A stretch of DNA of 64,000 nucleotides. Origin: Colwellia polaris (lineage in GTDB: Bacteria > Pseudomonadota > Gammaproteobacteria > Enterobacterales > Alteromonadaceae). A program made the translations under genes and the position numbers. Below, in pieces: positions 6,233 through 54,219 of the stretch. How positions within the stretch are numbered: position 1 is the first letter of the stretch; every line of letters begins with the position of its first letter. Below the pieces are notes generated by a model. It did not search any database. It was not told the origin of the DNA and saw only the letters and a program-made list of their open reading frames with translations. The stretch spans positions 186,001-250,000 of the forward strand of contig NZ_NBOE01000002.1 of NCBI RefSeq assembly GCF_002104515.1, given 5' to 3'.

Positions 6233-6436
6233 ATGATTATATTATTAGGTGTTGTATTAAGCGTTGTATTTTCTATCTTTTTTTATTGTCAGGCTATGAG
6301 TAGTGGTTTGGGAGTTAAACGTTGGGCAACTGCGGGTTTAATGTTTGGGCCTTTTGTTTGGCCAATGTTCTGTATGAAAAAACGTTTAAAGACTTATCAG
6401 CGTTTTGGTTTTGATTGTTTGTTGTTTTCTGCATAA
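6233..6436 (+). CDS. Small membrane protein, 67 aa, unknown function
   Basis: The protein is short and hydrophobic. The N-terminal membrane helix runs over residues 2-20 (IILLGVVLSVVFSIFFYC), then comes the motif GLGVKRWATAGLMFGPFVWPMF, forming a second hydrophobic segment, and a basic tail with KKRLK. The G-x-KRWA-x-AG-x-x-x-GP-x-x-WPMF pattern looks like a small conserved family of marine Gammaproteobacteria, but this is from general impression, not a search. The ATG follows an AGAGAGTAGAGC purine-rich ribosome site. An AT-rich upstream region with TAGAATTTGCGCG could contain a -10 element. It is not obviously linked to fadIJ, because a terminator separates them. Confidence 0.65.
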   Translation: MIILLGVVLSVVFSIFFYCQAMSSGLGVKRWATAGLMFGPFVWPMFCMKKRLKTYQRFGFDCLLFSA

Positions 6437-6546: not shown

Positions 6547-6651
6547 TTAATTCCACCATGTACTAGCTGGCATCTCTTTAATTTCGATACCTGCAGCAAT
6601 AGTATTTTCGGTCTTTTCTGTAACAAATAATGATTTAATTAAGTTAATCAT
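6547..6651 (-). CDS. Tiny ORF, 34 aa, coupled to the nonapeptide-repeat gene
   Basis: The start ATG is at 6649-6651, with an AGGAAA ribosome site seven bases upstream inside the 9-bp gap that follows the stop of the repeat-peptide gene. The peptide starts MINLIKSLFVTEKTENT and ends MPASTWWN. It has three Lys against four Glu, no signal peptide and no transmembrane helix. The paired tryptophans before the terminal Asn are striking. Good ribosome site, tight spacing and shared strand argue that it is translated as the second cistron of a two-gene unit. No family is recognised. It could be a modified or cleaved peptide, a partner or immunity peptide of the first ORF, or a chance ORF. Confidence 0.55.
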   Translation of the reverse strand: MINLIKSLFVTEKTENTIAAGIEIKEMPASTWWN

Positions 6652-6660
6652 AGTGGTTTC

Positions 6661-6912
6661 CTAGATACGAACAGTGCCGCGTTTAGTACCAACTTCATCT
6701 ACTGGTGTATTTTTAGAATCAATGCGAACAGTGCCACGTTTAGTACCAATGCGAACAGTGCCACGTTTAGTACCAATGCGAACAGTGCCACGTTTAGTAC
6801 CAATACGAACAGTGCCACGTTTAGTGCCTACAACTTCAGGGGTGAAATCATTTACATTTGTGGCCGCTGGTGTTGACGACATTACTAAAGATAAAATTAA
6901 TGAACTAAGCAT
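6661..6912 (-). CDS. Nonapeptide-repeat precursor-like protein, 83 aa, 5 x GTKRGTVRI
   Basis: The 83-residue product has a hydrophobic start (MLSSLILSLVMSSTPAA) that could be a weak signal peptide although it lacks N-terminal Lys/Arg. A short linker NVNDFTPEVV follows, then four head-to-tail copies of GTKRGTVRI, a spacer DSKNTPVDEV and a fifth copy at the very C-terminus. Each unit carries Lys-Arg and another Arg, so the repeat region is strongly basic (about +15). An AGGAAA ribosome site precedes the ATG at 6910-6912, and a sigma-54-like promoter lies about 43 bp upstream of the start codon. The leader, linker and repeated-core layout resembles multi-core peptide precursors, but no modifying enzyme or transporter gene is adjacent. 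No family was recognised; function is unknown. Confidence 0.6.
   Translation of the reverse strand: MLSSLILSLVMSSTPAATNVNDFTPEVVGTKRGTVRIGTKRGTVRIGTKRGTVRIGTKRGTVRIDSKNTPVDEVGTKRGTVRI
6664..6828 (-). repeat. 27-bp coding repeat, 4 tandem copies plus one separated copy
   Basis: Four head-to-tail 27-bp units occupy 6721-6747, 6748-6774, 6775-6801 and 6802-6828; a fifth unit sits at 6664-6690 after a 30-bp spacer. The three middle units are identical. The two outer units differ from them at two and three positions, and all five changes are synonymous in the minus-strand frame encoding GTKRGTVRI. This indicates recent expansion or homogenisation together with constraint on the peptide. Confidence 0.9.
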
Positions 6913-6954
6913 ACTATTTCCTATTTAAGTTATTATTATATTCAATAATAGATA

Positions 6955-6970
6955 AGCTAGAAGCGTGCCA
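6955..6970 (-). promoter_or_regulatory. Sigma-54 (RpoN) type promoter of the repeat-peptide gene
   Basis: On the minus strand the sequence TGGCACGCTTCTAGCT matches the RpoN consensus TGGCACG-N4-TTGCW with one mismatch (TAGCT). It keeps the required GG-N10-GC spacing of the -24/-12 elements. Transcription would begin near 6943, giving a leader of about 30 nt with the ribosome site. Upstream lie imperfect repeats built on AACCCTTTA (6979-6990 and, inverted, near 7050), which could be activator sites. RpoN dependence is inferred from the match. Confidence 0.6.
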
Positions 6971-7066
6971 AAAGTTCAAACCCTTTATTTATAGGGCTTT
7001 AAACTTAATATTGAACAAGATAAACTTAAGTGTCAGAAAATCGACGCTAAAGGGTTAAAGTTTATT

Positions 7067-10000
7067 TTAACTAAATGATGTGGATTTATTCGTAATTTGA
7101 AAGGAGAGTAAATATTTTTGAAAATCATTTTTAGGAAGTGGTTTGCTATATAAATAACCTTGCAATTGCTCACAACGTAAACCCGATAAAAAACTTAGTT
7201 GTTGATTGGTTTCAACACCTTCTGCCACAACTTGCATACCTAAGTTGTGAGCGATGGTAACTATCGTAGCGACCATGTTTCGACCTTGCTCAGAGGTTTC
7301 AATATCGTCAACAAACGCTTTATCTATTTTTAGGGTATTTAATGGGAATTTCTTTAGATACGCCAATGAAGAGTAGCCAGTACCAAAATCATCTAACGAT
7401 AAATGAATGCCCATAGCGCGAATTTGCAGCATAGTATCAATGGCTTTTTGGGGAGAGTCCATCACAGTACCCTCAGTTATTTCTAGCTCTAAATATTTGG
7501 CAGGTAAGCGGCTTTCTTTCAGCGCGTCTGCAATCATTGCAACCAAGTTTGGCTGGGTAAATTGCACGGCGGAAAGGTTAACGGCAACACGACCGTCAAA
7601 AAGCCCCGCATCAACCCACTTCTTAGTGGCAATACATGCTTTTCTTAAAACTATTTCGCCAATATCAATTATTTGCCCTGTCTCTTCAGAAACCGGTATA
7701 AATACTACTGGGCTTATAATGCCTTTTTTAGGTGTTTCAAAGCGCACTAACGCTTCCATTCCCGCAATTTTTCCAGTGGTAATCTCTATTTTAGGTTGAT
7801 AAAAAACTGAAAATAAATCTTCTTTTAACCCGTGGCGAATTAAACTTTCAATTTGTAAGCGTTTTACCGCCGTTTTATTCATAGAATCACTAAAAAATTG
7901 ATATTTATTTCCGCCAATATTTTTAGCATGGTACATCGCAGTATCAGCATTTTTTAGCAATTCTTGTGGATTTTTCCCATCTTCGGGATATAGAACAATT
8001 CCAATACTACTATAAAGTACAATTTCTTGATTTTTGAGTCTTAATGGTAAGGCAATAGATTTTAATATTTCTTTACCAAGCGTAGTAATCGTGTGAATAT
8101 CATTTGTATTTTCAATAATTAAACTAAACTCATCACCACCTAAACGATAAACGGTATCAAGATTTTTACCTAAGCCTTTAATGCGCTCTGCAACTTTACA
8201 GAGTAATACATCACCAACTTCATGGCCTAGTGAGTCATTAACTTTTTTAAAGTTATCGAGATCGAATACTAATAATGCATGTGGTACTTTACTGTTTACC
8301 AACTTCTGTTGGTTAGCCTGAAAATAAGCTCGATTTGGAAGGCCAGTGAGAGTATCAGTGTTAGCAAGCTTTCTTAATTCGTACTCTGTTTGTTTACGTT
8401 TAGTTATATCAGAGAAAACGCCAACAAAGTGAGAAACATTACCGCTTTCATCACGAATTATATCAATGTTTAAATCGGTTAAGTAAAGGTCGCCATTATC
8501 ACGAGTATTTTCGATCTCACCGTGCCAACTGCCTTTAGTGATTAAGTGCTTCTTTACGTTTTGATTAAAGCTGTCAGAATATCGTTCAAACTTAAGAAGT
8601 GTACCGCGCATTTGTAATTTACTTTTTCCGGTAATACTTTGAAATGCCTTATTAACATCAACAACAGTAAATTGACGGTCGTAAATAACAATAGCGTCAG
8701 AGATGTTTTCGATACATTTTGCAAAAAGCTTTAAACGTTCATCAGCACGTTTAATTTGACTAATATCTTTTAGTGTTCCTGTCATTCGGCTAGGGTTGTT
8801 TTTTTCATCTCGCTCAACAATCTTTCCACGATCTAGCACCCATATCCATTTATTATCTTTATCTTTAACACGATATGTTGATTCAAAATGCTGGCTACTG
8901 TCTTCAAAATGTTGATTTAAAGCTTCCCTAACACGTGGAATATCGTGTTGATGAATGTTGGTTTGGTCAGCACCAACATTACGTTTACCATCTTGAGGGA
9001 ACTCTAATATCCCCCAGATATTGGAACGGAATATTTTACCGCTTTTAATATTCCAATCCCACATTTCGTCACCACTACCCCAAAGTGATAATTTAAGACG
9101 TTCTTCACTGAGTTTGATTTGGAGGTGATATAAGCGTTTGTGGCGCATTTGTTGCAAAATATAAGCGAAGATCAACAGTGCAACGCAACTGTAAAAAATT
9201 ATCGCTGTAGTTGATAACCACCAAGGCGGCATGATGGTAATATTAAGTGACTTGATTTTACTTTCTTGATTGCTTTGTAAATCATATGCTTGTACTTCGA
9301 AAGTATAATCGCCAGAGTTTAAGTTCGTATATGTTGCTCTTTGGTTATTTTTTCCTGAATCAATCCACTTATCTTCTAATCCAACCAAGCGGTAACGATA
9401 ATTTAGTTGGTTGGGGAGTTTAGTATTTGGTGAGATGAACTCGATACTAAATTGAGATTGTGTATGCTGCAAAGTAAGAGTACTTAAATAGTTTGGAGCC
9501 TGCTCTAAAAAATACTGATTTTCTAATGTTTTAGGCTGTATATTACTCCTGACAGGCACTTGTTTATTAGCAATAAATACATTTGAAATAGTAGGTGTTA
9601 GTGGAAATTGTTTTATTTGATAAACTTCTTGAGGAATAAAGGTATGAAAACCATTTACACCACCAAAGAAGATGGTATCACTAGATGTTAATAATGAACT
9701 ATCGCTAATATATTCATTGTCATTCAATAGCATATCTTTATTAAAAGTTCTGACTAATTGGTTTGAGGGGTTAACAGAATTTATACCAATATTAGTTGAT
9801 ACCCAGCCTGTATCTGAGGAGTCAATGACAACATCAGCTATAAAATTATTACTAAGTCCATTTTTTTCGCTAAAAAATAAGTTTGTATTGTTGTTTTTGT
9901 TAATTAAGGCTAAACCGTTGCGTTGCGAGCCTAACCAGATCCATTCATTAGACACCGCAATATTTGAAATTTCGCCAAATTTGATTTTATTTGAAAGCTT

Positions 10001-11638
10001 GTAGGTTTTATTTGAAAATTCTAGTTTAGTAACGTTGAAGCTTAAAACCTCTCCTTGATCTGATGATAGCCAAATTGTTTTATCTTTATCATATTTTAAA
10101 GAGGTAAAAGTACTTCCATTTTCATAAGTTTCAAACTGATTTGTTTCAATATCAAACGAAGTTAGTTTTAAGTTACTGTTAATAAACCAAATTTTATTAA
10201 TTATCAAAAACATAAGACTTAAATTGGCGTGATAGGAGTTGTTTTTCCAAAATTTGTTTTCAGTAAGAGTGAAGTTTTTGGTATTAAAGTTATATAGTTT
10301 TCCTGGTCGGTTTGAGTTTTCTTCTTCAGTCCTTAACCAAATGTTATCGAGCTTGTCAGTCATCAAGTGGGAAATAGGAAACTTGTTTCCAATATTTATA
10401 TGGACAATCTTTTCATCTGAATTCAAGTAACTTAACTGTCCATCATCGGTAGCAAACCATACTTTACCATCTTTAGTTTCTGCTAAAGCATATACCGAGC
10501 TTGGCATTTCGTTATAATTAAATAAGCCATGTCTAATTTTTAACTGAAGGCTATTAAATGTGTTAATCCCATTCCCATCAGTTCCAAGCCAAATATTATC
10601 TGCTTTATCTTTGAATAACTTTAATATGTAATTGTTGGAAATAGCATTTTTATGTTGTACAGATTGATATGAATCAATATCACCAGATAGCAAGTTAATA
10701 ATGTTGAGGCCATTTAATGTTCCGAGCCAAACCATCGAACCATTCAATAACTCAATAGTCCTAACGTTGTTAGATAGAAGTTTATCGTTTTTATTTTCAG
10801 CGTTAGCTGAGTAATGTTTTTTTATTTTATATTCTTGAGAGATAACAAATAAACCGTTATCGGTCGCTAACCAGTATTGATTGTCGATGAGTTTTAGATC
10901 GTAAAGTGCATCTGCATTTAGTTTCAAATTCCATTTATTGTGTTCACTTAAAGAAATTGCAAAGGTTAGTGTATTGTTGGCTAAATATATCCCTTTATCA
11001 TAAGTACCAAGCCAATAGTTCCCTTTTTCATCTTGGAAAATGGTTTTAATCTCTTTTAAAGCAGTATCAAAACCACGAATTCTTATTCGTGAAAAATTTT
11101 GATTTTCTGGATCAAATTTATGTAGACCTTCTTTGGTGGAAACCCAAATGTTATTATTGGGGTCTTGATAAATATCCCAAATTTCGTTGTCTTTTAATGA
11201 GCTATTGTCGTTAGTTTGATGTGTGAAATTTTCAAAATTATCGAGCGATTCGTTGTAACGACTCAATCCTTTATTTGTGCCAACCCAAAGCACGTTTTGT
11301 TTATCTATAAATAATTTGCGAATAAAATTATCAGCAATTGATGATTGATCAGAGCTATCGTGACGATAATAAACGAAGTTCTTACCATCATATCGATTTA
11401 AGCCGTCTTGGGTGGCTATCCATATAAAGCCATTTTGGTCTTGGGTAATATCGTAAACATAGCTTTGAGAGAGGCCTTCAGCTATCGAAATTCGTTCAAA
11501 TTTCAAGGGGTTTTGATTAATATTGTACTGTGAAGCTAGGACCTTGGTATGAGGAAGTAGCAAAATTGTCAGGGTCAAAAAAGTGACCACTGCAAAACAT
11601 CGGGGAATTAATTTATTTCTTAAAAGAAGCAAAAGCAC
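7067..11638 (-). CDS. Membrane sensor: two-component-regulator propeller, PAS, GGDEF and EAL domains
   Basis: This large sensor (1523 aa) would make and/or break cyclic-di-GMP. After a signal/anchor (residues about 1-36) come many propeller repeats of the type GL-x-RYDG-x-x-F with W(I/V)AT or WLGT strands (about 50-720), then a Y_Y_Y domain (about 730-805), one transmembrane helix (about 810-830), two PAS segments with PAC motifs, GGDEF and EAL. The GGDEF motif is intact (RLGGDEFSLII). The EAL domain keeps EALVRFE, NLSAVQF, ELEITEG, DDFGTGYSS, KIDKAFV and AEGVET, so both activities look possible. The start is GTG with AAAGG eight bases upstream. The periplasmic ligand is unknown; related propellers in Bacteroidetes sense oligosaccharides. 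It ends 154 bp before the repeat-peptide gene on the same strand. Confidence 0.92.
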   Translation of the reverse strand: MLLLLLRNKLIPRCFAVVTFLTLTILLLPHTKVLASQYNINQNPLKFERISIAEGLSQSYVYDITQDQNGFIWIATQDGLNRYDGKNFVYYRHDSSDQSSIADNFIRKLFIDKQNVLWVGTNKGLSRYNESLDNFENFTHQTNDNSSLKDNEIWDIYQDPNNNIWVSTKEGLHKFDPENQNFSRIRIRGFDTALKEIKTIFQDEKGNYWLGTYDKGIYLANNTLTFAISLSEHNKWNLKLNADALYDLKLIDNQYWLATDNGLFVISQEYKIKKHYSANAENKNDKLLSNNVRTIELLNGSMVWLGTLNGLNIINLLSGDIDSYQSVQHKNAISNNYILKLFKDKADNIWLGTDGNGINTFNSLQLKIRHGLFNYNEMPSSVYALAETKDGKVWFATDDGQLSYLNSDEKIVHINIGNKFPISHLMTDKLDNIWLRTEEENSNRPGKLYNFNTKNFTLTENKFWKNNSYHANLSLMFLIINKIWFINSNLKLTSFDIETNQFETYENGSTFTSLKYDKDKTIWLSSDQGEVLSFNVTKLEFSNKTYKLSNKIKFGEISNIAVSNEWIWLGSQRNGLALINKNNNTNLFFSEKNGLSNNFIADVVIDSSDTGWVSTNIGINSVNPSNQLVRTFNKDMLLNDNEYISDSSLLTSSDTIFFGGVNGFHTFIPQEVYQIKQFPLTPTISNVFIANKQVPVRSNIQPKTLENQYFLEQAPNYLSTLTLQHTQSQFSIEFISPNTKLPNQLNYRYRLVGLEDKWIDSGKNNQRATYTNLNSGDYTFEVQAYDLQSNQESKIKSLNITIMPPWWLSTTAIIFYSCVALLIFAYILQQMRHKRLYHLQIKLSEERLKLSLWGSGDEMWDWNIKSGKIFRSNIWGILEFPQDGKRNVGADQTNIHQHDIPRVREALNQHFEDSSQHFESTYRVKDKDNKWIWVLDRGKIVERDEKNNPSRMTGTLKDISQIKRADERLKLFAKCIENISDAIVIYDRQFTVVDVNKAFQSITGKSKLQMRGTLLKFERYSDSFNQNVKKHLITKGSWHGEIENTRDNGDLYLTDLNIDIIRDESGNVSHFVGVFSDITKRKQTEYELRKLANTDTLTGLPNRAYFQANQQKLVNSKVPHALLVFDLDNFKKVNDSLGHEVGDVLLCKVAERIKGLGKNLDTVYRLGGDEFSLIIENTNDIHTITTLGKEILKSIALPLRLKNQEIVLYSSIGIVLYPEDGKNPQELLKNADTAMYHAKNIGGNKYQFFSDSMNKTAVKRLQIESLIRHGLKEDLFSVFYQPKIEITTGKIAGMEALVRFETPKKGIISPVVFIPVSEETGQIIDIGEIVLRKACIATKKWVDAGLFDGRVAVNLSAVQFTQPNLVAMIADALKESRLPAKYLELEITEGTVMDSPQKAIDTMLQIRAMGIHLSLDDFGTGYSSLAYLKKFPLNTLKIDKAFVDDIETSEQGRNMVATIVTIAHNLGMQVVAEGVETNQQLSFLSGLRCEQLQGYLYSKPLPKNDFQKYLLSFQITNKSTSFS

Positions 11639-11833: not shown

Positions 11834-14629
11834 TTAATATTTTCTTTGACATATTTTCAATAAAGTTTCTTCGTCATTTTTAATGGCATAGTTTTTTGTC
11901 ATTTCCTTTAATTGTTGACGACTTTCATAACTAAGTAATGATAAGCAGTCTGTGTTTTGGGCTTGATTGAAAACAGTCATAATAAATTCAGCAACATCTT
12001 CTATTGATAAGTTTTCAATAATTGAAATGAGTTTGCTCTTTTGATTGAATGAAGGCTCTTTGTTACAAATAGCAGCCCAATATCTTTGACTTTTTATTCT
12101 TAAATTTGAGTCCTTTTCCTGTAACTGGCTGGCAAGACCATGTTGTAAATGTTGCCAATGCTCTGCAGGTAATTGATCAATAAAGTCACTAGAGCGAGCA
12201 ATAAACTCATTCATTGCAATTGTTAATGTAACCGAATCGGTATGGGGTGATTGAATATAAAATGCTATTCCAGGGTAGCGATTAATAGGAATAAAGCCTA
12301 CACCGACCAAATAGCCATATTGTTTTTCTGTGCGCATTTCTTGGAAAAAAATAGGTGAGAGTAGTTGGTTAGTTAACATGGTTAACGCTACTGTGCGTAA
12401 ATCTTTATTTGGCATCGGATAATAAAGTACCGCAGCATGGTCATGAGCGGGTAATGCCATTGGCAATGTTAAAGTGCCTTTTCCTTTAATATCATTACAA
12501 GTAATTTTGACTTGATTGTTGTCTGACAATTTATTGACGAACACTTTTTTAATATCAGTAATTATTGTATCCGCAGATTGCCTAGACCAATTACCATGAA
12601 TGAGAAGATCAACAGCATTGTTTTCAAAAATTTTAGGAACAAAGTTTTTAAAGTGATCAAATTCTATTTTTTCTAGGGCATTAATTAATGTTTTGCTACT
12701 TGGGCTTGTAGGTTGCATTGAGGCACTGAGTTTAGCGAAAAGTTGCGATATAGACTTACTATTTTCTGCATTTTGCCAATGACAAAGTAGCTGTTGTTTA
12801 AATAATTCAAACTTATTTGGACAAAACTTCCCTTGCTTTAAGCTTGCGAGTAACTTTGGCAATAGTTGCTCTTGTTTCGTACTAATACCCGACAATTGTA
12901 GTGTTAGCCCACTTTGATGGGAATATAAGTGATAGTGAATGCCGGCTAACTCTGCGTCGTAATGTTCTTCTATAACGGCATCGCTGTATAAGTCAATAAA
13001 AAGACGAGTCATAGCGATTGAGCTCGGACTTTCTATTACTGCAGGTGAGTCTATCGATAAGTAGATGTAACCTTTGGGAGTATTAAAACTTGTATCATGC
13101 TTGAACCAAGCATTCAGGCCATTTTGTTGATAAATTTTTTCGGGTGGCTTTTGTGGTGTGTTGCTTAAGTCTTCATTAGCAATTAGCTGGGGCCGAGCAA
13201 CAATATAGGGGTTGTTTTTAGGTAAAGTTAACGCGTTTAAAGTTTCACTTTGTTGCCATTGCTCGATTTTTTTAAGCGCAATGTTTTTAACAGAATAGGG
13301 CACTTGATACCATTTACTTGTGTTGCTATGAGGCATGTCAGGGCTGTTTTTATCAATAGAAATTATGCGCATATTGCTAGCGACTAAATAGCCTAACAAG
13401 GTCGTTAGGGTTATTTGGTTTTGACCTTCCATAACATAGTCGCCAAAGATGTAATCTTTTTCTGGGTAATGTTGCATGTTAATGACAAGCTGACTAACAG
13501 AGTCAAGTGGCGACAACTTTTCTTGATAACAAAACGATAACTCAGCTAATGCTTTTTTTTCTCTATAATATTGCTCATTAAGTGGGGACTTTTTCAATAA
13601 GTTTATATAGGCGAATACAATACTTATTATCTCATTTATATTTGTAGCGCCGAGCTCAGAAAGTGAAATGCTAATATTAAAGTCTTTAAAGTTAGAGCCA
13701 TTTATACCTGAACCAGCGGTTAAACCTAAAGCCCACTGCTTACTTTTTAACAATGACAATATGCTGCCAGGACCTTCATGGCCAATTAAATAAGCGAGAA
13801 TAGATTCCGGTTTTTGTCGGTAATATTCATCGATACTTGGCATTGCAAAACTAATAATTAATTGTTGATCGTTTCTAACCGGTGTTACAGATATCCACTT
13901 TTGTTGATGCTCAGGGTAATAAAGGGGCTCAGTGATTTTAACTTTTTCAAGGCCATTTGATTTTATATCAGAAAAATTAGCATTAGCTAATGCTGCTAAG
14001 TTATCGAGCGACTGAGGGCCTTCTAGTACCAAAGTCATAAAATGTGCTTGATAGTTTTTGTCAAAAAATGCACTTAACTCTGCTTGTAAATTGTATCCAG
14101 CTTTATCTGCTAGAGTTTCACTACTACCAACAGAAAATTTTGCAAAAGGGTGTTCTTGGTTAATGGTTTCTTTGTGAACATCGTAAAGGCGTCGAATGTC
14201 GTCTTTTAGCTTAAGTTTAAACTCGGCATCTATATTTTTACGTTCTTTATTAACGAATTCTTCAGATAATAAAGGGCACGTAAAAAACTCACCAAAACGT
14301 ACTATTGCAGAATCAAAGTGTTGATGGCCGATATCGAAGAAAAAACAGGTATGCTCAGTTGCTGTCCAAGCATTGTTACTACCACCGTGTTCATTAATAA
14401 ATTTTTGGTATTCACTACCATCAGGAAAGTTTTTTGTACCAAGAAATAGCATGTGTTCAAGAAAGTGAGCAAGACCTTGTCGATGCTTAGGATCATCGAA
14501 ATGACCAACATTTACTGCTAAAGCTGCTGCAGATTTATGAGAGTCGTTATTATGAACTAATAAAACTCTTAAGCCGTTGTTTAAGGTAATTGACTTATAT
14601 TGTTTAGTGTCATTCGGGCTTATTTTCAC
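11834..14629 (-). CDS. Insulinase-family (M16) zinc peptidase, pitrilysin-like
   Basis: This 931-residue metallopeptidase belongs to the protease III / insulin-degrading enzyme group. The inverted zinc motif HFLEH lies at 55-59, and the third zinc ligand is a glutamate about 76 residues later. The downstream motif GGSNNAWTATEHTCFFFDI is also typical. The C-terminal half contains the inactive M16 repeats, including the RTEKQYGYLVGVGFIP segment. No signal peptide is evident (MKISPNDTKQYKS), so it may be cytoplasmic, unlike periplasmic E. coli PtrA. It probably degrades peptides; the substrate is unknown. The start is GTG preceded by GGGAGCGAAA. The gene stands alone, with 195 bp to the sensor gene downstream and a divergent gap of 283 bp to sixA. 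Confidence 0.9.
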   Translation of the reverse strand: MKISPNDTKQYKSITLNNGLRVLLVHNNDSHKSAAALAVNVGHFDDPKHRQGLAHFLEHMLFLGTKNFPDGSEYQKFINEHGGSNNAWTATEHTCFFFDIGHQHFDSAIVRFGEFFTCPLLSEEFVNKERKNIDAEFKLKLKDDIRRLYDVHKETINQEHPFAKFSVGSSETLADKAGYNLQAELSAFFDKNYQAHFMTLVLEGPQSLDNLAALANANFSDIKSNGLEKVKITEPLYYPEHQQKWISVTPVRNDQQLIISFAMPSIDEYYRQKPESILAYLIGHEGPGSILSLLKSKQWALGLTAGSGINGSNFKDFNISISLSELGATNINEIISIVFAYINLLKKSPLNEQYYREKKALAELSFCYQEKLSPLDSVSQLVINMQHYPEKDYIFGDYVMEGQNQITLTTLLGYLVASNMRIISIDKNSPDMPHSNTSKWYQVPYSVKNIALKKIEQWQQSETLNALTLPKNNPYIVARPQLIANEDLSNTPQKPPEKIYQQNGLNAWFKHDTSFNTPKGYIYLSIDSPAVIESPSSIAMTRLFIDLYSDAVIEEHYDAELAGIHYHLYSHQSGLTLQLSGISTKQEQLLPKLLASLKQGKFCPNKFELFKQQLLCHWQNAENSKSISQLFAKLSASMQPTSPSSKTLINALEKIEFDHFKNFVPKIFENNAVDLLIHGNWSRQSADTIITDIKKVFVNKLSDNNQVKITCNDIKGKGTLTLPMALPAHDHAAVLYYPMPNKDLRTVALTMLTNQLLSPIFFQEMRTEKQYGYLVGVGFIPINRYPGIAFYIQSPHTDSVTLTIAMNEFIARSSDFIDQLPAEHWQHLQHGLASQLQEKDSNLRIKSQRYWAAICNKEPSFNQKSKLISIIENLSIEDVAEFIMTVFNQAQNTDCLSLLSYESRQQLKEMTKNYAIKNDEETLLKICQRKY

Positions 14630-52434: not shown

Positions 52435-54219
52435 ATGACTGATCTTAACAATGCCTCTGTAGGCTTTGACGCCCTTGGTTTGCCTGAAAACTTAGTATCT
52501 GCTGTAAAAGCGCTAGGTTTTGAAAATTCAACTGCAATTCAAGCGCAAACAATTCCCCCTTTACTTCAAGGTAAAGACGTTCTTGGTGAAGCACAAACCG
52601 GTACCGGTAAAACCGCTGCTTTTGGTTTGCCAGCACTTGCAAAAATAGACGTTTCTATTCGCAAGCCACAATTAATGGTTTTAGCACCAACACGTGAATT
52701 AGCTATTCAAGTAGCAGAAGCGATTGAAACTTTTGCAAAAAACATGAAAGGTTTAAAAGTTGCCACTTTATACGGTGGTCAATCTTACCAACCACAATTT
52801 CAACAGTTAGAGCGTGGTGCACAAGTTGTAGTAGGTACGCCTGGTCGCTTAATGGACCACTTACGTCGTAAAAGCCTTAAGCTAGATAACTTATCATTTT
52901 GTGTGCTTGATGAAGCTGATGAAATGTTAAACATGGGATTTTTAGAAGACATCGAGTGGATCCTTGAGCACTTGCCAAAAGAAACTCAAATGGCCTTATT
53001 CTCTGCAACTATGCCTGCACAGATTCGTAAAGTAGCTAACCGCTTCTTGAAAAATCCAGAGCACATTAAAATAGCAGCAGTTAAGCAAGCTAAAGCAAAT
53101 ATTACTCAATATGCATGGAAAGTTAGCGGCATTAATAAAATGACTGCGTTAGAGCGTATTGCAGAAACATTTGATTATGATGCCATGATTATTTTCGTTA
53201 GAACGCGTAATGATACTATCGAAGTTGCTGAAAAATTAGAGCGTGCGGGTTATGCGTCTGTTGCGTTAAATGGTGACATGAACCAAGCGCAGCGTGAACG
53301 TACTGTTGACCAACTTAAGTCAGGCGTATCGTCTATCTTAGTGGCAACTGATGTAGTTGCTCGTGGCCTTGATATTCCACGTATTTCATTAGTTATTAAC
53401 TACGATTTACCAGGTGATAATGAAGCTTATGTTCACCGTATTGGCCGTACAGGTCGTGCAGGTCGCAGCGGTACATCTATATCGTTTGTACGTCCACGCG
53501 AAATGTACTCTTTGCGTCATTATGAGCGTTTAACATCTGGTACCGTTGAGATGTACAACTTACCAAATATTCAAGAAATTGGTAAAGCACGTATTGAACG
53601 CACATTAACTGAATTAACTGGTGTTGTAGCTGATAAAGACTTAGCTTCAATGCGTGAAATTATTGAAACAATGGCGAGCGAGTCAGAACTTTCAATGACA
53701 GATTTAGCTGCAGCGTTACTTTATCAAAAACAGTTAAAGCAACCGTTACAGCCGAAAGAAGATCCGAAACCTCGCCGTGATGCTCGTGAAAGAAATGATC
53801 GTAACGACAGCCGCGGTGGTCGTAATGACAGCCGAGGTGGTCGTAACGAAGCTCGTGGTGGCCGCGATAGCCGCAATGATAACCGTACAGAGCGCGCTCC
53901 ACGTAAAGCTAAAGTTGCCCGCAGTGATGTTGATTGGCAGACTTACCGCTTAGAAGTGGGTAAAGAGCATGGTGCACGTCCAGGTGATATTGTCGGTGCA
54001 ATCGCTAACGAAATTTCATTAGACAGTAGCTACATTGGCGCTATTAACTTGCATGATAAACATAGCTTTGTGCAATTGCCAAAAGGTATGCCTGACAAGT
54101 CATTTACACAATTAAAGCGTGTACGTGTTCGCCGTCAAGCATTAGAGATTACGGTTTCAGATGTACAACCTTCATCTGACCGTCCAGCACGTTCTCGTAA
54201 AGAGCAACGTACTAACTAA
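52435..54219 (+). CDS. deaD: DEAD-box RNA helicase DeaD (CsdA)
   Basis: This ATP-dependent RNA helicase works in ribosome assembly and mRNA turnover, especially in the cold. From ATG 52435 it has 594 residues: Q motif and Walker A AQTGTGKT (53-60), DEAD in CVLDEADEMLNMGF, SAT, and HRIGRTGRAGRSGT in the second RecA domain. A DeaD-type C-terminal region follows, then a linker with repeated DSRGGRN units and a DbpA-type RNA-binding fold (DVDWQTYRLEVGKEHGARPGD). The ATG six codons earlier has no ribosome site; ATG 52435 has GAGAAG upstream, although further than usual. Confidence 0.95.
   Translation: MTDLNNASVGFDALGLPENLVSAVKALGFENSTAIQAQTIPPLLQGKDVLGEAQTGTGKTAAFGLPALAKIDVSIRKPQLMVLAPTRELAIQVAEAIETFAKNMKGLKVATLYGGQSYQPQFQQLERGAQVVVGTPGRLMDHLRRKSLKLDNLSFCVLDEADEMLNMGFLEDIEWILEHLPKETQMALFSATMPAQIRKVANRFLKNPEHIKIAAVKQAKANITQYAWKVSGINKMTALERIAETFDYDAMIIFVRTRNDTIEVAEKLERAGYASVALNGDMNQAQRERTVDQLKSGVSSILVATDVVARGLDIPRISLVINYDLPGDNEAYVHRIGRTGRAGRSGTSISFVRPREMYSLRHYERLTSGTVEMYNLPNIQEIGKARIERTLTELTGVVADKDLASMREIIETMASESELSMTDLAAALLYQKQLKQPLQPKEDPKPRRDARERNDRNDSRGGRNDSRGGRNEARGGRDSRNDNRTERAPRKAKVARSDVDWQTYRLEVGKEHGARPGDIVGAIANEISLDSSYIGAINLHDKHSFVQLPKGMPDKSFTQLKRVRVRRQALEITVSDVQPSSDRPARSRKEQRTN

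Follow-up and report, generated by a model that had tools for sequence, protein, structure and literature searches.

In a 64,000-nucleotide stretch of the Colwellia polaris genome (contig NZ_NBOE01000002.1, positions 186,001 to 250,000; hereafter the window), we identified a small repeat precursor gene and an adjacent sensor gene that we consider reasonably likely to form a ligand-receptor pair, whereby an exported peptide is read by the propeller sensor in a pheromone-like manner to set c-di-GMP. The proposal is built from sequence, namely the gene pair, a promoter motif, conservation, selection on the repeated unit, co-occurrence of the two genes, one joint relocation and co-variation. A precursor that looks exported, a C-terminal unit, a dose given by copy number, a species-specific unit, a periplasmic sensor encoded next door, joint loss and movement and matched divergence together conform to the pattern of a ligand and its receptor. 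Under the proposed mechanism, ORF1 would encode a precursor that yields a short C-terminal peptide specific to the species (GTKRGTVRI in this case, in five copies) and would be transcribed together with a second gene, ORF2, from a sigma54-type promoter. Its hydrophobic leader would export the product, which would be cut at the unit boundaries; the periplasmic propeller domain of the sensor would recognise the released unit, and the GGDEF and EAL domains of the same protein would then raise or lower c-di-GMP. The peptide could accordingly be described as a pheromone-like or self-made periplasmic ligand with a dedicated receptor, which may act between cells and in which ORF2 presumably has some role.

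ORF1 (6661-6912, minus strand) encodes 83 aa with five identical GTKRGTVRI units, and its layout is as the initial annotation had described it: MLSSLILSLVMSSTPAATNVNDFTPEVV is followed by four tandem units (6721-6828, minus strand; individually 6802-6828, 6775-6801, 6748-6774 and 6721-6747), the spacer DSKNTPVDEV (6691-6720, minus strand) and a fifth unit at the exact C-terminus (6664-6690, minus strand; stop at 6661-6663). The leader and linker (residues 1-28; 6829-6912, minus strand) consist of the hydrophobic MLSSLILSLVMS and a linker that ends in EVV before unit 1. Alignment of the leader (A2, 15 rows from 15 of the 17 genus loci, G014 and G010 being omitted) revealed invariant M1, S3, S4, I6, L7, S8, M11, S12 and P15. 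The leaders are hydrophobic, and the multi-copy leader has none of the positively charged n-region that Sec signals usually show. Tandem Repeats Finder gave the 27-bp array a score of 207, the top of six rows in the window; a further short tandem repeat (21-bp period, three copies) is located at 53799-53861. Differences among the five ORF1 copies are confined to synonymous sites, suggesting that their identity is held at the protein level. In related arrays, spacers belonging to one gene differ from each other in amino acids. ORF1 returned no family match over the cut-off in Pfam or NCBIfam, and its PHROGs matches were insignificant; near-miss matches of ORF1, ORF2 and a one-copy form in these three databases (E values 0.027 to 0.75) fell below the cut-offs or were insignificant and were ignored. 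On the plus strand, an overlapping ORF of 84 aa (6674-6928) was rejected as the antisense shadow of the array.

Beyond what the initial annotation covered, ORF1 is accompanied by a sigma54-like site upstream, an adjacent sensor gene and a second small ORF 9 nt downstream. The putative promoter, TGGCACGCTTCTAGCT (6955-6970, minus strand), lies 58 nt upstream of the ORF1 start and resembles the sigma54 consensus TGGCAC-N5-TTGCW. A site of this kind was positioned 52-90 nt upstream of ORF1 in 65 of the 72 loci with an assignable ORF1 start, compared with 5 of 500 further genes from these loci; the seven loci without the motif comprise four from genus g13, two with a relaxed fit and one cut by a contig end. 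The evidential value of the pattern lies in this conserved position, since the pattern itself is not rare in the window (4 found versus 2.57 expected). Upstream of the promoter, the dyad-like GTCGATTTTCTGACA (7031-7045, minus strand) is recognisable in the genus alignment and has a single match in its own genome; it is possibly an activator site or the 3' hairpin of the sensor gene. The sensor (7067-11638, minus strand; 1523 aa) combines a double-propeller-like periplasmic part (Reg_prop and Y_Y_Y) with PAS, GGDEF and EAL domains, all of which were returned by a Pfam scan that detected no TPR. The periplasmic part can be aligned to the propellers and C-terminal region of PDB 4a2l (E value 3.5e-82).

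The wider neighbourhood is that of fadB. Nine protein clusters recur in at least 44 of 76 loci within about 8 kb (fadB, fadA, the MoxR-side clusters, a 67-aa ORF, an M16 peptidase, the sensor and ORF1); the eight besides ORF1 are present in 62-72 of these loci, and every other cluster is found in nine or fewer. The Pfam scan of these clusters covered fadB, the sensor, M16 and the 67-aa ORF; the remainder are putative fadA and MoxR-side genes. The 67-aa membrane-like small ORF (6233-6436, plus strand) is convergent with the module and present in 65 of the 76 loci; several genomes lacking the propeller sensor also have it next to fadB, indicating that it is part of the fadB neighbourhood. The M16 (pitrilysin-like) peptidase (11834-14629, minus strand) is a conserved neighbour that probably lies outside the module. 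A role for it as the dedicated processing enzyme is unsupported: three genomes (L177, L179 and L180) retain it next to fadB at a place that no longer holds the sensor and peptide, and distances between the M16 sequences of the genus do not parallel those between the units. No module-specific exporter or processing protease was found among the neighbours within about 8 kb in the 76 loci.

The initial annotation had made its precursor reading depend on homologues with intact reading frames in related genomes. ORF1 matches were present in 17/17 genus genomes searched, and the genus ORFs examined retain the leader together with one or more units (a single intact and a degenerate unit in G012). The match rows of G015 and G012 and the weaker row of G011 cross a TAG; as the gene is shorter than the query there, this TAG is the stop of the ORF itself. 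In the wider family, a leader-plus-unit profile matched 72 of 295 genomes at an E value of 0.1. We examined the module (sensor, promoter, ORF1 and ORF2) through 76 ORF1/ORF2 loci, which represent 75 genomes (one of them contributing two contigs, L114 and L146) and 18 genera, and a form without ORF2 is found in 12 further genera. The same plan recurs with divergent units, including GIREGKVRI, SQKRRESRI, AKGRGIKV, GRKASTIRI, ATRRGMIRI and TVNTRIRI. Among 63 scored loci we entered 57 distinct cores in 1 to 14 copies, with one-copy forms in six loci; cores were delimited by eye, which is arbitrary for the one-copy forms, and a run of N in the L088 array was read as X. As delimited, the cores of these loci end in I, L, V or M and carry a net positive charge of +1 to +5, and the last unit sits at the exact C-terminus in 52 of the 63. 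Draft contigs end at or near the ORF1 array in L095, L114, L137, L143, L144 and L146, so short-read assemblies will under-report the gene.

These data lend good support to the earlier proposal of a multi-copy peptide precursor: copy number ranges from 1 to 14, leader and locus are kept, and the units are held identical within genes by selection at the protein level (see below). The check suggested with it, whether copy number varies around a conserved leader and unit, showed a variable copy number and a conserved leader; the unit varies widely between species. The suggestion that the Lys-Arg pair of each unit could serve as a processing site is not supported, as the sister species L002 has GTRPGTVRI and 18 of the 57 distinct cores, as delimited, are without a dibasic pair.

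Within-gene comparison of the units (51 genes, 287 copies) yielded 1734 synonymous versus 18 nonsynonymous pairwise differences, all 18 of which came from L135. As the unit had been chosen as the best repeated word, the spacers were analysed as a control: 30 arrays chosen by hand, all with regular spacers, gave a pN/pS of 0.0018 for cores versus 0.20 for spacers, and the six nonsynonymous core differences in this set match the S/G position left open in L104. The contrast between core and spacer argues that the unit itself is the selected product, and these comparisons point to protein-level selection as what maintains identity among the units. An RNA-level function (small RNA or sponge) was ruled out because the copies vary synonymously and hardly at all in amino acids.

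ORF2 (6547-6651, minus strand), which had been missed, starts 9 nt past the ORF1 stop and encodes 34 aa, MINLIKSLF...IEIKEMPASTWWN (full sequence in the window, MINLIKSLFVTEKTENTIAAGIEIKEMPASTWWN). Its C-terminus is highly conserved, and 20 of 34 columns are invariant in an alignment of 15 genus rows (A1), in which two identical sequences were merged and G014, whose ORF2 ends in WWS, was omitted. In 11 of the 16 genus loci a GAGG sits no more than a few bases beyond the end of ORF1, suggesting coupled translation of ORF2; the window has TAGGAAACC there instead. An ORF2 profile search matched 93 of 295 family genomes at an E value of 0.1 or better and, by our own count from the table, 74 family genomes in 18 genera at 1e-4 or better, the weaker rows probably being chance matches. 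At the level of the order, 7 of 295 genomes matched at 1e-3, all of them from the same family. Ten genomes of genus g52 (L123, L125, L126, L131, L133, L135, L136, L137, L139 and L142) carry a tandem ORF2 pair with C-termini such as EMSANSWWS. One could tentatively regard ORF2 as a second, clade-wide conserved signal or a maturation helper; this forms part of a joint pheromone reading to which, taken as a whole, we would give not quite even chances.

In 67 of the 76 ORF1/ORF2 loci, the gene immediately upstream of the precursor, and on its strand, encodes a propeller sensor. The sensor is cut by the contig start in two more (L109 and L143), the contig ends at four (L095, L114, L137 and L144) and the sensor is elsewhere in the genome in two (L115 and L121); at L141 (genome G132, 78 % complete), peptide genes were present and no sensor was found within 7.7 kb upstream. 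Searches of the C. polaris genome for paralogous modules revealed no comparable promoter-plus-leader ORF in the 1500-nt flanks of 18 other GGDEF-EAL loci or in wider stretches around five other Y_Y_Y loci.

As a control, we inspected the 3' flanks of fadB in 60 hand-picked family genomes with no ORF2 match better than an E value of 0.02, of which five truncated flanks were omitted (L178, L181, L208, L218 and L226). The 55 remaining flanks comprised 26 with sensor and peptide, two with the sensor and no recognisable peptide gene (L189 and L199), none with the peptide only and 27 with neither (Fisher p 1e-13, a descriptive value rather than a strict probability, as related genomes are not independent). 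In the 26 flanks with both, from 12 genera, the promoter motif is followed by a short ORF that begins with a leader (for example MLKAYAVALVLTTAAPVA) and ends in a variable C-terminus (WKPGSVRI, IKVGSVRF, GFGMWGF and others); in L200, a leader that appears Sec-like by eye, MLRALVIAAAVVASAPALA, is followed directly by ISKPGGVIR units. Twenty-two of these outer loci have one copy and four have two to five, suggesting that the repeat represents an increase in dose rather than a requirement of the fold. No such ORF was seen in the 27 flanks without the propeller sensor. A leader-filter scan, which recovered 24 of the 26 known positives (missing L163 and L164), also matched L165, L205 and L225, where the propeller sensor is absent; these matches were judged unrelated by eye. 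Several of the 27 flanks carry a different, non-propeller GGDEF-EAL gene at this position without a peptide gene, which points to the propeller as the part that accompanies the peptide. In L165 and L171 (genus g42, no propeller sensor there), a longer secreted-looking protein is encoded 3' of fadB, in L165 with a sigma54-like site upstream; going by the start of its sequence, it is possibly a PEP-CTERM protein.

Losses and moves were also seen. Three congeneric genomes (G147, G092 and G053) have neither an ORF1/ORF2 match nor a sensor match at 1e-60, a threshold that misses the sensor of G018 but finds those of congeners at 47-50 % identity. In G283 and G293, the peptide genes are kept by fadB and an intact sensor is found elsewhere. 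In G170, scored as 'neither' at fadB, sensor, promoter, ORF1 and ORF2 are located together at another place, i.e. they have moved jointly.

The unit and the sensing domain also diversify together. Sequence differences among 16 genus sensors affect 36 % of sites in the propeller and 7 % in the GGDEF-EAL part. Across the 15 of 16 genus loci with the full-length fadB and M16 needed for the partial test, unit distance correlated with propeller distance (r 0.38, 1 of 2000 permutations; partial r 0.42, 0 of 2000), while the raw and partial values were -0.05 and 0.07 for EAL, -0.15 and 0.12 for fadB and -0.24 and -0.28 for M16. Leaving out one genome at a time in the 16-genome test gave 0.32 to 0.53. 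The clade-wide Mantel test drew on 62 of the 76 loci, with L106, L109, L121, L143 and L144 dropped as having no complete linked sensor and loci without an entered core omitted (among them L115, L120 and L123-L125). The partial correlation with the propeller was 0.32 over all 53 clade loci (0 of 2000) and 0.26 over the 38 that remain when the genus is removed (1 of 2000). Raw correlations over the 53 loci were also significant for EAL (0.44), fadB (0.27) and M16 (0.52; 0 of 2000 each), as shared ancestry predicts, and M16 retained a small partial correlation (0.18, 30 of 2000). In the 26 outer loci, the partial correlation was weaker (0.26, 72 of 2000). Sliding windows placed the signal at sensor residues of about 260-800; this propeller end lies farther from ORF1 than the EAL part, which linkage alone would favour. 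Two other propeller sensors considered as Mantel controls were too patchy, these paralogues occurring in 2 and 6 of 17 genomes, and no second fast-evolving propeller usable as a control was found. Unit and propeller, the proposed ligand and receptor domain, therefore diversify together beyond the linked control genes in the genus and the clade, and more weakly in the outer loci.

All of the sequence evidence on the pair would fit equally well if the peptide acted solely in the periplasm of its producer, as an accessory ligand or inhibitor that tunes the sensor with no intercellular role, and sigma54 control could make such a peptide an internal growth or stress signal. We nevertheless regard this autocrine tuning as unlikely: strong diversification between species combined with strict identity within genes would suit specificity between neighbours, which is an argument rather than a test. 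The initial annotation had offered signal, toxin and matrix component as possible roles; of these, a signal is favoured, since the partner gene encodes a periplasmic sensor and the unit co-varies with its sensing domain, and the other two are less so. A structural or matrix role for a short cationic product (amyloid-like or surface-binding), with copy number tuning bulk properties and the sensor regulating biofilm in general, would be in keeping with regular, net positive repeats in 1-14 copies beside a c-di-GMP gene. It is quite unlikely given that one-copy forms occupy this position in 6 of 63 loci and 22 of 26 outer loci, which departs from the functional amyloid pattern of several repeats being needed for the fold, and given that the unit in the genus tracks the sensing domain but not any of the three other regions tested. 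That the units are secreted antimicrobial or toxin peptides, varying through competition, appears very unlikely; short cationic peptides that diversify rapidly between species would be expected of such a system, but no immunity or export gene is kept among the recurrent clusters of the 76 loci, and the partner is a sensor whose variation the unit tracks. A multi-core RiPP precursor with ORF2 as helper or second precursor, as the leader, cores, spacers resembling repeated recognition sequences and the highly conserved ORF2 C-terminus might suggest, is highly improbable, since no recurrent cluster within about 8 kb in the 76 loci was recognised as a dedicated modifying enzyme (fadB, the sensor, M16 and the 67-aa ORF being those scanned against Pfam) and M16 stays where the module is gone. 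Finally, units such as GTKRNQVRIG resemble a CsrA strand; CsrA mimicry was dropped as the likeness is lost in other genera.

The preferred reading, a peptide ligand read by the adjacent sensor, has partial parallels in known systems. The Bacteroides double-propeller hybrid two-component sensors (PDB 4a2l/4a2m, presumably BT4663) share the periplasmic Reg_prop propellers and Y_Y_Y with our sensor, but their output is a kinase-regulator rather than PAS-GGDEF-EAL, and their ligands are oligosaccharides, whereas a gene-encoded peptide is proposed here. Fungal multi-copy secreted precursors, such as alpha-factor and the Kex2-processed repeat proteins, likewise have a leader, a linker and several identical short units; the present precursor differs in being bacterial and in having no conserved dibasic site, and no sequence relation is claimed. 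An organisational likeness is also seen to the RRNPPA systems of Firmicutes (Rap-Phr, NprR, PlcR and AimR), in which, according to PMC9765709, a small exported propeptide gene lies beside the receptor gene, the mature peptide is at the C-terminus and some propeptides hold up to six identical copies. Here, too, the propeptide gene is adjacent to that of the proposed receptor. RRNPPA propeptides leave the cell through Sec and their peptides are taken up again; in the present case, export and release of the C-terminal unit would belong to the proposed mechanism. The differences are a periplasmic propeller with GGDEF-EAL output and no TPR in place of a TPR receptor, a Gram-negative host, a sigma54-like promoter, the additional ORF2 and a precursor with no family match over the cut-off in Pfam or NCBIfam.

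To our knowledge, ribosomal peptide pheromones with dedicated receptors are a Gram-positive hallmark, Gram-negative cases not being established, and few propeller-type c-di-GMP sensors have a known ligand. We found no description of this gene pair in the open-access papers searched, and the sequence comparisons suggest a previously undescribed peptide signalling system in Gram-negative bacteria. The units offer a clean case of unit-by-unit homogenisation under selection. It is possible, if somewhat doubtful as a whole, that many marine Gram-negative genera of one family use a species-specific linear peptide pheromone, whose precursor lies behind a sigma54 promoter and holds 1 to 14 identical copies, and which a dedicated double-propeller receptor detects in the periplasm and turns directly into c-di-GMP. 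For one such receptor, the genome itself would name the candidate ligand in dozens of species, and the natural unit variants across species would provide material for specificity swaps.
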